Shown piece by piece: positions 7,483 through 60,997 of a stretch of 64,000 nucleotides of DNA. Position numbers and translations under genes: made by a program. The notes under the pieces were generated by a model. The model did not search any database, was not told the DNA's origin, and was given only the letters and a program-made list of their open reading frames with translations. Numbering within the stretch: position 1 is the stretch's first letter; every line of letters begins with the position of its first letter. This DNA is from an uncultured Erysipelotrichaceae bacterium (GTDB lineage Bacteria; Bacillota_I; Bacilli_A; Erysipelotrichales; Erysipelotrichaceae): positions 1 through 64,000 of the forward strand of contig CALUZH010000012.1 of the NCBI GenBank assembly GCA_944325255.1, given 5' to 3'.

Positions 7483-7538
7483 TTTTTCATGTCGCAAGAA
7501 TTTTGATAATCGTTTTATCATTTTAAATACTTAAACAC

Positions 7539-7560
7539 AAAGGACCTGAAAGGGTCCTTT
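7539..7560 (+). terminator. Hairpin terminator after the acetyltransferase
   Basis: AAAGGACC and GGTCCTTT form a perfect 8-bp stem with a 6-nt loop, about 55 nt after the stop. There is no long T tract beyond the stem, so efficiency may be modest. Confidence 0.55.
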
Positions 7561-7936
7561 AAAACAAGTTTAAGTAATTGATAGTTCTAGGCAATCGCTT
7601 AAATTTATAATATGAGGATAGTTATAATCTACATTGATATAAAGCGAAGAATAAGCAGAAGTTTTTTAACTTGCGCTTGTTGCGGGAATTTAAAAAAATA
7701 AAGGGTATATATAAATGAAAAAATAAAAAGTCCGTAATGACCTTGACCTGCCCTCACTATATACTTTGAATGATTTGCTTGAGATAAAATCACGTTTGAT
7801 CATGTAAAAACCATTTCATCTAGAATTACGGACGTATATGTCCGATATATATTGGTATTTCTTTTGGCGTTTTATTGTTTTAAAATTGACATGTGAGGAA
7901 GGCCATATGCCTAGGGCATTTTGGAAGTTATCAGCG
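7561..7936. repeat. Long intergenic stretch with a 104-bp inverted-repeat-bounded segment
   Basis: No credible gene lies between 7561 and 7936. Within it, GTCCGTAAT (7730-7738) and ATTACGGAC (7825-7833) are perfect 9-bp inverted repeats bounding 104 bp of AT-rich sequence. This is the layout of a miniature or decayed transposable element, but no target-site duplication is clear. TATAAT-like strings near 7605 and 7625 have no gene after them. Confidence 0.3.
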
Positions 7937-57670: not shown

Positions 57671-57694
57671 GACCGTTTATCTAACGGTCTTTTT
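57671..57694 (+). terminator. Terminator of the tmk-rsmI operon
   Basis: GACCGTT, 5-nt loop, AACGGTC followed by TTTTT. Immediately past the rsmI stop and just outside the left attachment repeat. Confidence 0.9.
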
Positions 57695-57729
57695 AAATAT
57701 GACAAATAATAATATATTTATTAAAGGGC

Positions 57730-57782
57730 ATAAAAAAAGCCCTACTTTAAGGACTGAAATTAAAATGGTGGAGCATAGCGGG
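57730..57782. repeat. Left attachment site (direct repeat copy 1)
   Basis: 53 bp identical to 60886-60938 except T/C at 57747. It carries a second copy of the final 17 nt of tRNA-Ala (TGGTGGAGCATAGCGGG) and of the tRNA terminator, but no complete tRNA, as expected at the far end of a tRNA-site insertion. Confidence 0.9.
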
Positions 57783-57931
57783 TTTTATTTGGTTAATTTT
57801 TGATTGATTTATGTTATCAGATTTGCCTTATTTTAAGACGTTTTATATATGCCTATCTTTTTGTAAATTATATGCTTTTTTCTAAAATCTTCTCAATTTC
57901 TTCTCACTTTTTTGCGTTTATGCCGAGAAAA

Positions 57932-58042
57932 CTTTTTGAGCTAGGCTTGCTAGAAGTAGGCTTAAAGACGAGAGCGCCAAAGCTTTAGCTTTGGAGGTCT
58001 ACGGCTTGCCGTGACTTTGGCAAGGGTTCCTAGCTCAAAAAG
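57932..58042 (+). other. Candidate single-strand origin: large branched stem-loop
   Basis: CTTTTTGAGCTAGG (57932-57945) and its exact complement (58029-58042) close a 111-nt structure. Inside are CTTGC/GCAAG, a hairpin CCAAAGC-TTTA-GCTTTGG (57977-57994) and ACGGC-TT-GCCGT (58001-58012). A long, imperfectly paired noncoding stem-loop is what rolling-circle plasmids use as lagging-strand origin. I do not see the TAGCG box of ssoA types, so the class is open. It could instead be a structured RNA. A 62-codon frame across 57800-57988 is not credible as a gene. Confidence 0.55.
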
Positions 58043-58071
58043 GAAATTGGAATAAATGCATAAAACATATG

Positions 58072-58100
58072 TTGCAATATATACAAAAATATTGTACTAT
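58072..58100 (+). promoter_or_regulatory. copG-rep promoter with operator palindrome
   Basis: TTGCAA (58072-58077) and TACTAT (58095-58100) with 17-bp spacing. The spacer carries CAATAT (58075-58080) and ATATTG (58089-58094) as an inverted repeat. In pMV158 CopG binds a similar symmetric site inside its own promoter. Confidence 0.7.
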
Positions 58101-58125
58101 TAGCATATAGAAAAGGGGTGTTAAA

Positions 58126-58473
58126 ATGGATGATACCAAAAAGTCAGATTATAAGAAATCTACTAGAAGACGATTATCTGTCCCATTGTCTATCAAGCTT
58201 TATGACAAGATATTAAGGGATGCAGATGCCATGGGTGTATCTCCTGCCACATATGCCGGTATACTCATAGGTCAACACTATCAACAGCTCGAACAAACTA
58301 ATGAGAATGCTAAAAATGCTTTTGGTGATATGTTGTCTAATTTGCTTACTTCTCAATTAGGCATTTCGAAAGATGTTGCCGATAATATCGTCGAAGAGAG
58401 TTCTAAAAATTCCTATCAAGAAGGCTTAGATTTCTTTAAGTCATTAAGTGAACACAATAAAGCTAACAAGTAA
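58126..58473 (+). CDS. CopG-like ribbon-helix-helix copy-control protein
   Basis: 115 aa. The basic segment RRRLSVPLSIKLYDKILRDA, then DAMGVSPATYAGILIG, fits a ribbon-helix-helix protein: a beta-strand that reads DNA, followed by two helices. The remaining 60 residues are extra compared with pMV158 CopG (45 aa). Likely represses its own and the rep promoter. AAGGGG precedes the start. Confidence 0.75.
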   Translation: MDDTKKSDYKKSTRRRLSVPLSIKLYDKILRDADAMGVSPATYAGILIGQHYQQLEQTNENAKNAFGDMLSNLLTSQLGISKDVADNIVEESSKNSYQEGLDFFKSLSEHNKANK

Positions 58474-58482
58474 TCTAAGCAT

Positions 58483-58572
58483 AAAAAAACAACTAGTTAG
58501 ACCGCTAAATCCTTACTAGTTGTTACAATATTCACAATAAGCCTTAAACGCTTAATTTAAGGGCTCTATTGC
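58483..58572 (-). ncRNA. Candidate counter-transcribed RNA controlling rep
   Basis: On the minus strand an extended -10 (TGCTAAAAT, 58587-58579) predicts a start near 58572. The RNA would hold a hairpin (58539-58565, AGCCCTTAAA/TTTAAGGCTT with a bulge). It would end in a perfect terminator: AACAACTAGT/ACTAGTTGTT (58524-58488) followed by seven Us, which exist only on this strand. About 90 nt long, it is antisense to the leader between copG and rep, exactly where pMV158 encodes RNA II. Confidence 0.6.
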
Positions 58573-58635
58573 TATTTGATTTTAGCATAAATTCCTTGAA
58601 AAATATAGGCTTATTCTCTTAGTTTACTATATTCT

Positions 58636-58661
58636 CCGCGCGGTCAATGTAATCCGCGCGG
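58636..58661. repeat. Paired CCGCGCGG palindromes
   Basis: The 8-bp palindrome CCGCGCGG occurs at 58636-58643 and 58654-58661, with starts 18 bp apart (about two helical turns less three bases). It is striking in an AT-rich stretch. It lies between the antisense RNA promoter and the nick site. A protein-binding site in the rep leader or origin is possible. Confidence 0.5.
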
Positions 58662-58710
58662 AAGCCTAAGCTTAAAGAGGAAAATACCTACTTTTTGGGG
58701 CTAAGAATTC

Positions 58711-58743
58711 CAATTGCTTATTACTACGACATATAAGCAATTG
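58711..58743 (+). other. Double-strand origin (dso) nick-site hairpin
   Basis: Perfect 11-bp inverted repeat CAATTGCTTAT / ATAAGCAATTG with an 11-nt loop TACTACGACAT. TACTACGAC is the pMV158-family nick sequence, cleaved between G and A (58728/58729). Presence of both hairpin and nick sequence upstream of rep is strong evidence for a working leading-strand origin. Confidence 0.88.
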
Positions 58744-58744
58744 G

Positions 58745-58836
58745 TGTTCCATGTGTCAAACAGTTAAAAAACCCTTTATTTAAGCCTTATATGATTGGCA
58801 CACATCTCTTAAAAAAACATGTTCCATTGTGCCAAA
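58745..58836 (+). repeat. Rep-binding direct repeats (iterons)
   Basis: TGTTCCATGTGTCAAA (58745-58760) recurs as TGTTCCATTGTGCCAAA (58820-58836). An inverted partial copy, TTGGCACACAT, lies at 58795-58805. In pMV158 direct repeats beside the nick hairpin bind RepB. The second copy reaches the rep ribosome site, so Rep could also repress its own synthesis. Confidence 0.6.
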
Positions 58837-58852
58837 AAGAAAGGATTTATTT

Positions 58853-59536
58853 ATGACTATAAATTTATTTAAAAATAACATTAAATCTCGCAATTATTGT
58901 GCGGTTTTATATCCTCAAGAAGATAATACTCACGCTAATGCACTTGAGTATATCTCATCCCATTTTCAATCATGCTATATCACTCACGATAGAGACACAG
59001 ATGAAGATGGCGAAATTAAAAAAGCTCATGTGCATGCGGTGATGACATTTAAAAATGCAAGGTATCAAAAATCAGTTGCTTCTGAGCTTGGCATTGAAGC
59101 TAATTACTTAGAAAAAGTAAGCAACTTAGATAGCTATTTGCTATATCTTGTTCATTATGATGAGCCTGATAAGTTCCAATACTCCATTGATGATGTAAAA
59201 GGCGCACTGAAAGGCAAGCTTGATAGGCTTCTTAAAAGTGAAAGTATTCCCGATGAAGAAGAAGCGGTCTTGTTTCTAAAAAATTATATTTCTAATTCAC
59301 ATACGTTAATCTCGGTAAGCGACTTTGTTACTTATTCTTGTCAAAATGGCTTGTATAAGTATTATCGGCGAAGTCCTAATATATTCAATAAAATGCTTGA
59401 TGAGCATAATAACTATATCAGAAGTAAAGCCGATTCAGATGATCTATACGATGATGCATACAATCTGGATCTAGATACAGGCGAGCTCACTGAGCTCAAG
59501 GAAAGAGGTGGATACATTGAAAACAATAAGCTATAA
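58853..59536 (+). CDS. Rolling-circle replication initiator (Rep_2/RepB family, HUH)
   Basis: 227 aa from ATG 58853, after AAAGGA. CAVLYPQ begins the OB/HUH core; THDRDTDEDGEIKKAHVHAV contains the metal-binding HVH (His59, His61). LDSYLLYLVHYDEPDKFQY carries the catalytic Tyr (probably Tyr98, in the YLxH motif) and the conserved Lys-x-Gln-Tyr. It nicks the origin and joins the ends after one round of replication. The C-terminal part may be an oligomerisation domain, as in pMV158 RepB. Confidence 0.9.
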   Translation: MTINLFKNNIKSRNYCAVLYPQEDNTHANALEYISSHFQSCYITHDRDTDEDGEIKKAHVHAVMTFKNARYQKSVASELGIEANYLEKVSNLDSYLLYLVHYDEPDKFQYSIDDVKGALKGKLDRLLKSESIPDEEEAVLFLKNYISNSHTLISVSDFVTYSCQNGLYKYYRRSPNIFNKMLDEHNNYIRSKADSDDLYDDAYNLDLDTGELTELKERGGYIENNKL

Positions 59537-59783
59537 AGAGCGTTATTTGCTTGCCATAAGCGAAAACCTTTCCATTAAGCAAATATCTTTGCTTTTAGGC
59601 ATTGGCTCTTCTATGGCTTCTAAAATCCGCTCTAAGGCACTTGATTACTGTATCTTGAATGATATTCCCCTTTATTCGCAACAAGTTCCCACAGAAGCGG
59701 TTTTAGCGGTCACAGGCAAAACGGTAGACTATTACTACACTAAATTTCTTCAAGAGCAAAAAGTATTGCTCCAAGGTGCTTGA
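59517..59783 (+). CDS. Small HTH protein, possible excisionase or regulator
   Basis: 88 aa from TTG 59517; GAGGTGG lies at proper distance, whereas a GTG at 59508 would be inside it. The segment LAISENLSIKQISLLLGIGSSMASKI looks like a helix-turn-helix. Placed between rep and integrase, it might direct excision (Xis-like) or regulate int. No family recognised. It overlaps rep by 20 nt. Confidence 0.6.
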   Translation: MKTISYKERYLLAISENLSIKQISLLLGIGSSMASKIRSKALDYCILNDIPLYSQQVPTEAVLAVTGKTVDYYYTKFLQEQKVLLQGA

Positions 59784-59785
59784 GT

Positions 59786-60883
59786 ATGCCTGTATACAAG
59801 AATAATAAAGCTAAATCAAAAAAGTATTATGTCAAGCATAAAAACATCACAAAGCGTGGCTTTGAAACATATCAAGAAGCCAAGATGTGGGAAAGTAAGC
59901 TAATTTTGGAAAATAGCCAAGTAAATTGTAATAAATACTTTTATGATGTGGCAACATTGTACTTTGATGATTTAAAGCCTAACGTCACTTATGCTACATA
60001 TGGCAAGGCTATACAAACCTATAACGCTTATATAAAGCCTAATCTTGCCAATAAGCGTTTATCTTCAATTACCGCTCTAGATTGTAAGAAGTTTAAAGAT
60101 TTTATTGATGCGTTACCTCTACACACATCCTCAAAAAATTATATTATAGGGGTTTATAAGCGTATATTTACCTTTGCGGTTAAATATCTTTCACTAAGCA
60201 ATAATCCTTGTATAAACCTTGATAACTTTAAAAGGACTAGCGAGGAAATTATTAGGAAGCATTCAAAAGAGCTTAATGTTTGGTCTGTTGATGAGTTTAA
60301 TAAGTTTATTGAATGTGTAAAGATACCTAAATATAAAACGCTATTCTATGTGTTATTTTATACAGGCATAAGACTTGGAGAAGCTCAAGCTTTACAATGG
60401 AAAGACTATTATAATGGCTTAATTGATGTTTATAAAAGCTATACAGTCAAAACCGATAAAGGCATATATGAAATTAAAACCACCAAAACTCTTTCTAGTA
60501 TTCGCAAGGTGTCTTTACCAAGCAAGCTAATAGACGTTCTTGATGATTATAAAGCTAGCATTTCATCGACTCCTGGTTTTAGTAATGACTGGTATATCTT
60601 CGGCAATATAAATCCTTTGCCTAGAACCAACATTGAAAGAGTAAAGAGTAAAGCCATTAAAGAAAGTGGTGTTAAGAGAATCAAGATACATGATTTTAGA
60701 CATTCTCACGCTAGCAATCTTATTGCAAGTGGTGTTAATATAGTTGCGGTATCTAAAAGGTTAGGGCATAGCGATATTAACATGACGCTTAAAACCTATA
60801 CACACTTGATGAAAAAAAGTGAAGATGAACTTTTAATGAGTTTAGATAAAATCTTCTCAAAATCTTCTCAAGATGATTTTTAG
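59786..60883 (+). CDS. int: Tyrosine recombinase (integrase)
   Basis: 365 aa from ATG 59786 with AAGGTG upstream. An N-terminal arm-binding domain (KYYVKHKNITKRGFETYQEA) precedes a core-binding domain (about 55-150). The catalytic set is complete: Arg196 (YTGIRLGEAQAL), a Lys near 231, His302 and Arg305 (HDFRHSHASN), His328 (LGHSDI) and nucleophile Tyr338 (TYTHL). The stop lies 2 nt before the right repeat. It should recombine the 53-bp repeats to integrate or excise the element. Confidence 0.95.
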   Translation: MPVYKNNKAKSKKYYVKHKNITKRGFETYQEAKMWESKLILENSQVNCNKYFYDVATLYFDDLKPNVTYATYGKAIQTYNAYIKPNLANKRLSSITALDCKKFKDFIDALPLHTSSKNYIIGVYKRIFTFAVKYLSLSNNPCINLDNFKRTSEEIIRKHSKELNVWSVDEFNKFIECVKIPKYKTLFYVLFYTGIRLGEAQALQWKDYYNGLIDVYKSYTVKTDKGIYEIKTTKTLSSIRKVSLPSKLIDVLDDYKASISSTPGFSNDWYIFGNINPLPRTNIERVKSKAIKESGVKRIKIHDFRHSHASNLIASGVNIVAVSKRLGHSDINMTLKTYTHLMKKSEDELLMSLDKIFSKSSQDDF

Positions 60884-60885
60884 GT

Positions 60886-60938
60886 ATAAAAAAAGCCCTA
60901 CTCTAAGGACTGAAATTAAAATGGTGGAGCATAGCGGG
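60886..60938. repeat. Right attachment site (direct repeat copy 2), overlapping tRNA-Ala 3' end
   Basis: Contains the last 17 nt of tRNA-Ala and the tRNA operon terminator read on the minus strand: AGTCC/GGGCT stem then seven T (60910-60888). Because the repeat keeps both, the tRNA stays functional after insertion. Confidence 0.9.
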
Positions 60939-60997
60939 ATCGAACCGCTGACCTCCTGCGTGCAAAGCAGGCGCTCTCCCAGCTGAGCTAATGCCCC
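60922..60997 (-). tRNA. tRNA-Ala (UGC)
   Basis: 76 nt on the minus strand including encoded CCA. Starts GGGGCAT; D arm AGCTCAGCTGGGAGAGC; anticodon loop in CTGCTTTGCACGCAG gives TGC; T arm GCGGTTCGATCCCGC. Acceptor stem pairs fully with ATGCTCC. Confidence 0.96.

Follow-up and report, generated by a model that had tools for sequence, protein, structure and literature searches.

A probable minimal integrative rolling-circle replicon resident in a tRNA-Ala gene of an Erysipelotrichaceae bacterium

Analysis of a 64,000-nucleotide stretch of DNA from an uncultured Erysipelotrichaceae bacterium (contig CALUZH010000012.1, positions 1 to 64,000; hereafter the window) revealed a 3156-bp element that is most probably a minimal integrative rolling-circle replicon, inserted at the 3' end of a tRNA-Ala gene. 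Judged by its sequence, the element is a chimera, in which a Rep protein and double-strand origin (dso) of inovirus type are joined to a single-strand origin (sso) of the type found in Gram-positive plasmids and to a tRNA-targeting integrase. With int, rep, dso, sso, attachment (att) repeats and two small putative regulators, it is near the smallest plausible autonomous integrative replicon. The original prediction had described a rolling-circle replicon that integrates by means of a tRNA-targeting integrase and lacks transfer and cargo genes of its own. This description is well supported and is strengthened by the plasmid-type sso (57917-58057), a feature absent from that prediction, as was the helix-turn-helix (HTH)-like open reading frame (ORF) of 91 amino acids between rep and int.

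Boundaries, tRNA target and gene content

The element is bounded by a pair of 56-nt direct repeats spaced 3156 bp apart (57727-57782 and 60883-60938), which are identical at 54 of 56 positions (two mismatches), with a longest identical run of 35 nt. The chance expectation for a 33-mer repeat pair is about 1e-10, and besides the att pair no exact repeat of at least 20 nt was found within the window. The right repeat takes in the 3' end of a tRNA-Ala(TGC) gene, which is intact and lies on the minus strand, together with the intrinsic terminator of the tRNA genes (hairpin 60911-60894). The left repeat is a second copy of the tRNA 3' end and terminator (hairpin 57755-57738, minus strand). Such a repeat pair is the trace left by a tyrosine integrase that inserts at a tRNA 3' end and restores the tRNA and its terminator. 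Four ORFs lie between the repeats, and all four are open. The features are as follows.

57727..57782, no strand: left att repeat, the original tRNA-Ala 3' end and terminator, displaced (54/56 match with 60883-60938; terminator-like hairpin)
57917..58057, plus: plasmid-type sso, with conserved flanks TTTATGCCGAGAAAACTT (18 nt) and AAAAGGAAATTGGAATAAAT (20 nt) around a large hairpin (exact flank matches; folding)
58075..58094, plus: candidate operator, the imperfect inverted repeat CAATATATACAAAAATATTG upstream of the ribbon-helix-helix (RHH)-like gene (sequence inspection; function putative)
58126..58473, plus: putative RHH regulator of 115 amino acids, for copy control or repression (RHH-like by eye)
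58636..58661, plus: GC-rich hairpin CCGCGCGG...CCGCGCGG just upstream of the dso (fold and pattern)
58710..58744, plus: dso nick hairpin, with a 12-bp stem and loop TACTACGAC at 58722-58730 (fold and pattern)
58745..58758, plus: putative Rep bind repeat pair TGTTCCATGTGTCA (TGTTCCA-TGTGTCA), with an equivalent pair after the nick hairpin in loci L004, L005, L012, L013 and L031
58853..59536, plus: Rep, HUH Y1 initiator of 227 amino acids (PF01719, E 9e-20), with H59-x-H61 and Y98 of YLxH (family match, alignment, profile, trees)
59517..59783 (start 59508 or 59517), plus: HTH-like protein of 88-91 amino acids, putative excisionase or regulator, overlapping rep and lying between rep and int
59786..60883, plus: tyrosine integrase (PF00589, E 1.4e-21; PF14659, SAM_3, E 7e-9; phrog_1 integrase, 1e-63)
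60883..60938, no strand: right att repeat, the element-borne tRNA-Ala 3' end and terminator (tRNA call, repeat comparison, hairpin)
60922..60997, minus: integration target tRNA-Ala(TGC), intact (ARAGORN; Rfam, 2e-13)

The flanking repeats with one copy over tRNA-Ala, the complete tyrosine integrase, the HUH Rep and the nick-site hairpin of the original prediction were thus all recovered. The integrase stop codon touches the right att repeat. Because rep, the HTH-like ORF and int overlap or directly adjoin one another, they are probably a single operon, which would put copying and integration under one switch. No Zot, coat, export, relaxase-only, coupling-protein (TcpA/FtsK-like) or cargo gene was found among the ORFs of the element in searches of Pfam, PHROG and further families.

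The two small proteins were more difficult to assign. A CopG-like protein with an operator had been predicted, and this assignment was not confirmed. The 115-aa protein had no match in Pfam, PHROG or NCBIfam and no relevant match in PDB, its alignment with Cop-6 was not significant (47 of 300 shuffles scored as well), and the supposed operator is only an imperfect inverted repeat. Its structure model, of low confidence (predicted local distance difference test, pLDDT, 62), contained no strand, and the RHH assignment, made by eye, is putative. The HTH-like ORF showed weak matches to sigma region 4 (E 0.009) and gave a helical model of low confidence. The label of DUF3173-type excisionase, considered for this protein, found no support in Pfam and was rejected. 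For both proteins, the fold searches and models were too weak to use.

The element is flanked by rsmI on the left and by tRNA-Ile and a DUF349 gene on the right. The displaced terminator of the left repeat (57738-57755, minus strand) now sits just beyond rsmI, a gene with a terminator-like hairpin of its own at 57671-57689.

Rep and the two replication origins

Rep is a nuclease-only PF01719 protein. The HUH motif H59-x-H61 and Y98 in YLxH were kept in every relative aligned, and a profile of the Rep clade searched against PDB found the pMV158 RepB structures (3dkx, E 6e-5) with the HxH and YLxH motifs aligned. The closest sequences in tblastn searches were from inoviruses, namely bajarodino virus 66 (42% identity, E 2e-39) and virus 43 (39%), with plasmids far lower (best 31% identity, E 6e-17). 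Searches of genome contigs found L012 (43%), L013 and L014, and a search of IMG/VR found L031, which carries Zot. L012 is a filamentous prophage in a Bacillales metagenome-assembled genome (MAG), with coat-like, adsorption-like and Zot-like genes; L014 had no Zot match and was taken as an inovirus from its coat-like and adsorption-like ORFs. Relatives of this Rep are rare. With the host genome included in the counts, they were present in 8 of the 316 genomes from the order, 9 of 395 from the class and 5 of 392 from the phylum, and most belong to inoviruses, integrative and mobilisable elements (IMEs) or plasmids.

Two Rep trees were built, of 46 and 42 rows, in which sampling favours inoviruses because later searches were partly seeded with inovirus Reps; the first, unseeded searches already put inoviruses on top. 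In these trees, the window Rep fell in a clade of seven rows with five inovirus Reps and L013 (support 95/80, then 97/94). The nearest inovirus Rep is that of bajarodino virus 43, at 40-41% identity. In both trees, this clade sits inside a larger side that is split from all plasmids sampled with support of 100/100. The second tree placed three long-branched IME Reps (L143, L145 and L146) on the larger side as well. This side is therefore not exclusively viral, whereas the seven-row clade is viral apart from two minimal elements, the window element and L013.

The dso tells the same story as Rep. The nick hairpin, composed of CCAATTGCTTAT-TACTACGACAT-ATAAGCAATTGG, and the repeat pair that follows it are also present in bajarodino viruses 66 and 43, L012, L013 and L031, and a second, similar repeat pair lies before rep at 58820-58834. 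Alignment of the dso region with that of inovirus L012 scored 45, against 30 for the best of 60 shuffles, and with that of L013 it scored 47 against 28. A 17-mer before rep is common to the window and bajarodino virus 66. By these comparisons, Rep and the nick region belong to the filamentous-phage (inovirus) branch, apart from the pMV158 and pE194 plasmids. Of the pMV158-like plasmid backbone originally proposed, what stands is a Rep of the pMV158 RepB superfamily and a pE194-type sso; the Rep clade and dso point instead to filamentous phages.

The sso is of plasmid type. Both flanks match without a mismatch in pE194 (L188:641-795), pSC262 and plasmids of Macrococcus and Lactococcus, with a large variable hairpin between them in each, and DNA folding of 57900-58130 was far beyond that of shuffles (z -6.9). 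The sso is on the same strand as rep and the nick site, upstream of the dso, which is the usual plasmid layout (PMC4595007). A review of staphylococcal plasmids describes the sso classes that bear recombination site B (RSB) as primed by RNA polymerase, and gives ssoU for plasmids of the pE194 family (PMC5703833). By its exact flanks the window sso is of RSB type, and it may be ssoU or another class. The large hairpin was at first considered as a phage packaging signal, an idea ruled out by the conserved flanks, which are those of a plasmid sso. The spaced sso pattern had no exact match in IMG/VR. At the DNA level, the search for relatives of the whole element matched only integrase fragments and the sso. 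One of the plasmids with the same kind of sso, pSC262 (L183) of Streptococcus suis, is a 5.1-kb erm(T) plasmid with an integrase-domain gene and a toxin-antitoxin pair, another intermediate between plasmid and IME.

Proposed cycle and competing explanations

From the att repeats, int, rep, dso, sso, gene order and Rep phylogeny, as read from the DNA, we infer a cycle of excision, replication, copy control and helper-assisted transfer. The integrase, probably with the HTH-like protein as directionality factor, would recombine the 56-bp repeats to give a 3156-bp circle and an intact tRNA gene. Rep would nick TACTACG^AC in the exposed hairpin loop, the exact cut being taken from pMV158, and start rolling-circle copying. 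Starting from the sso, host RNA polymerase and DNA polymerase would then convert the displaced plus strand to double-stranded DNA, and the resulting double-stranded circle would re-integrate. Expression of rep would probably be limited by the RHH-like protein. A circular multicopy form of the element may fairly be expected. In the absence of any coat, export, relaxase-only or coupling-protein gene, spread between cells would have to borrow a helper, either with Rep serving as relaxase for a conjugative helper, for which there are precedents (PMC5714925, PMC5704250), or through packaging by a filamentous phage. Because the element is so small, its excision, its copying and its use of a helper should be easy to test.

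A second minimal element, L013, was found in a Lachnospiraceae MAG (JAFQIE010000035.1). Its 137-bp repeats are 98% identical and 3015 bp apart, and the right one overlaps tRNA-Lys(CTT) at 7537-7610. Between them are an 87-aa ORF that is RHH-like by eye, the ACTACGAC nick hairpin, Rep (PF01719, 1.9e-16) and, 8 bp after Rep, a tyrosine recombinase (PF00589, 1.4e-33). No Zot was found in L013, and its non-coding DNA had no plasmid match. L013 has a different recombinase and regulator from the window element and stands apart in the tree, which suggests that elements of this plan were put together on more than one occasion.

Several observations weigh against an integrative replicon of this composition. 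The rsmI neighbourhoods of relatives were without any tRNA and offered no empty site, and in the one same-genus genome the site was not beside rsmI. Where relatives have tRNA-Ala/Ile loci, the surroundings differ, although genome G014 has an uninterrupted version of the same tRNA-terminator arrangement. The sso was absent from the inovirus loci and from L013 at 4-5 mismatches, and the combination was seen once. Lastly, the RHH and excisionase roles are putative, the evidence for both being weak.

The alternative that survives best concerns how the element spreads, and is compatible with the integrative replicon preferred here. The element may be a non-canonical IME, in which Rep also serves as the relaxase for its own nick site, while a conjugative element in the same cell moves the circle. 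We regard this as possible but hold it only tentatively. The streptococcal Rel_PF01719 IMEs combine PF01719 with an integrase at a tRNA (PMC5357655, PMC5704250), and plasmid Reps act as relaxases with ICEBs1 (PMC5714925). Within the window's own family, L143 (genome G251) and L146 (genome G268) carry a PF01719-type Rep, an FtsK-like protein and Int, the L146 Rep having an RNA_helicase domain, and both are IMEs of the streptococcal non-canonical kind. However, their Reps are distant from that of the window. The element itself has no coupling protein, and no VirB4-type ATPase over the cut-off was found in the host genome (in 32 contigs). The known members of the class are also larger, at 5-18 kb, and most carry TcpA.

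It is unlikely, in our judgement, that the element is a filamentous-phage satellite, replicating with its inovirus-type Rep and dso and being packaged and exported by a helper inovirus via an unrecognised signal, as RS1 is with CTXphi. The nesting of Rep among inovirus Reps and the alignment of the dso region with an inovirus are in keeping with this, as is the lack of morphogenesis genes in both minimal elements. So is L142 (G593:C46, 1800-10870), an inovirus prophage that is apparently complete, about 9 kb long and inserted at tRNA-Gly in a host of the same class, with 33-bp imperfect repeats, a Zot above the cut-off and its own tyrosine integrase, which is related to that of the window (E 2e-34). 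Elsewhere, L151 (G575:C1:168000-179500) holds one filamentous prophage in two tandem copies, with Rep, Zot-like, adsorption and coat genes repeated at a spacing of about 4.5 kb, and L029 has a tandem Rep/Zot pair as well. Against a satellite, no Zot gene was found in the 32 contigs of the host genome by a PF05707 search, a model of limited sensitivity that barely detects some related Zots. In addition, no packaging signal common to the window and its inovirus relatives was seen beyond the dso region, the large hairpin is a plasmid sso and not a phage feature, and rep genes are readily exchanged between plasmids and inoviruses (PMC6668415). The broader proposal of a class of integrative satellites of Gram-positive filamentous phages, about 3 kb in size, that kept the phage initiator and origin, dropped the particle genes, gained a tRNA integrase and travel in helper virions, is doubtful. 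Were it true, a host-read plasmid sso would have been added in the window, and such satellites would have evolved on at least two occasions, represented by the window element and L013. The integrative replicon preferred here raises the question of whether Gram-positive filamentous phages have satellites.

An ordinary integrated plasmid of the pMV158/pE194 type that acquired an integrase is improbable. The pE194-type sso, the PF01719 Rep and the order of sso, cop-like gene and rep, as in pE194, agree with it, but the trees disfavour it, with Rep outside the plasmid clade (100/100) and nearer to inoviruses than to any plasmid (42% against 31% identity). The window also has two bind repeats, compared with three in pE194, and its dso follows the cop-like gene instead of preceding it. 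L017 (CAMWVP010000067.1, 1-3300) carries genes for an excisionase-like protein, an integrase, a PF01719-type Rep and a MobV relaxase, adjoins a guaA-like gene, and is an integrated mobilisable pMV158-type plasmid. Least probable by our estimate is a decayed filamentous prophage surviving passively after loss of its structural genes: the inovirus-type Rep, the missing structural genes and an integrase related to those of inovirus prophage L142 and int-rep locus L149 would fit, but the four open ORFs, repeats matching at 54 of 56 positions, intact dso and sso and tight operon do not suggest decay, L013 has the same size and plan, and the plasmid-type sso is an addition rather than a remnant.

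Comparison with known systems

The original argument for novelty proved weaker than stated. The pairing of a PF01719 Rep with a tyrosine integrase is known from streptococcal IMEs, 35 of which have PF01719 and 15 PF01719-helicase (PMC5357655, PMC5704250), and site-specifically integrated HUH-Rep elements and plasmids are also known (PMC6668415). Like the window element, the streptococcal PF01719 (Rep_2) IMEs contain int and a PF01719 protein and insert in the 3' ends of tRNA and other genes, and their excised form is thought to replicate by rolling circle. They differ in size and in the presence of TcpA in most, whereas the window element is 3.1 kb long, lacks a coupling protein, and has a plasmid-type sso and an inovirus-branch Rep.

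The pMV158 and pE194 plasmids share with the window a PF01719 Rep with HUH and YLxH motifs, the TACTACGAC nick hairpin, a same-strand RSB-type sso and possibly a cop-like gene upstream. The window element differs in its location at a tRNA and its possession of an integrase, in its Rep clade, bind repeats and dso position, and in having no mobV or resistance gene. The Inoviridae of gut Firmicutes (bajarodino viruses 43 and 66; prophage L142) have the closest Reps and the same nick hairpin with a two-repeat bind site, and some of them integrate at tRNAs by a tyrosine integrase as the window element does. In contrast, the window has no Zot, coat or adsorption genes, and its plasmid-type sso was not found in Inoviridae. 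By these features, the element appears to be neither a pMV158 plasmid, its Rep being outside the plasmid clade, nor an inovirus, as it has no structural genes.

The integrated HUH-Rep plasmids of the pCRESS group (PMC6668415) are likewise small, integrate site-specifically and have no virus structural genes, but their Reps carry a helicase domain, unlike the nuclease-only Rep of the window (227 aa). The likeness to RS1, the satellite of CTXphi (PMC11389934), is one of concept only, that of a small replicating companion of a filamentous phage; a helper has been shown for RS1, and none is known for the window element. A phage replication module joined to a plasmid lagging-strand origin illustrates the exchange of parts among plasmids, IMEs and filamentous phages. 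What is new here is the small size, the lack of a mobilisation partner gene and the mixing of an inovirus-branch Rep and dso with a plasmid sso.

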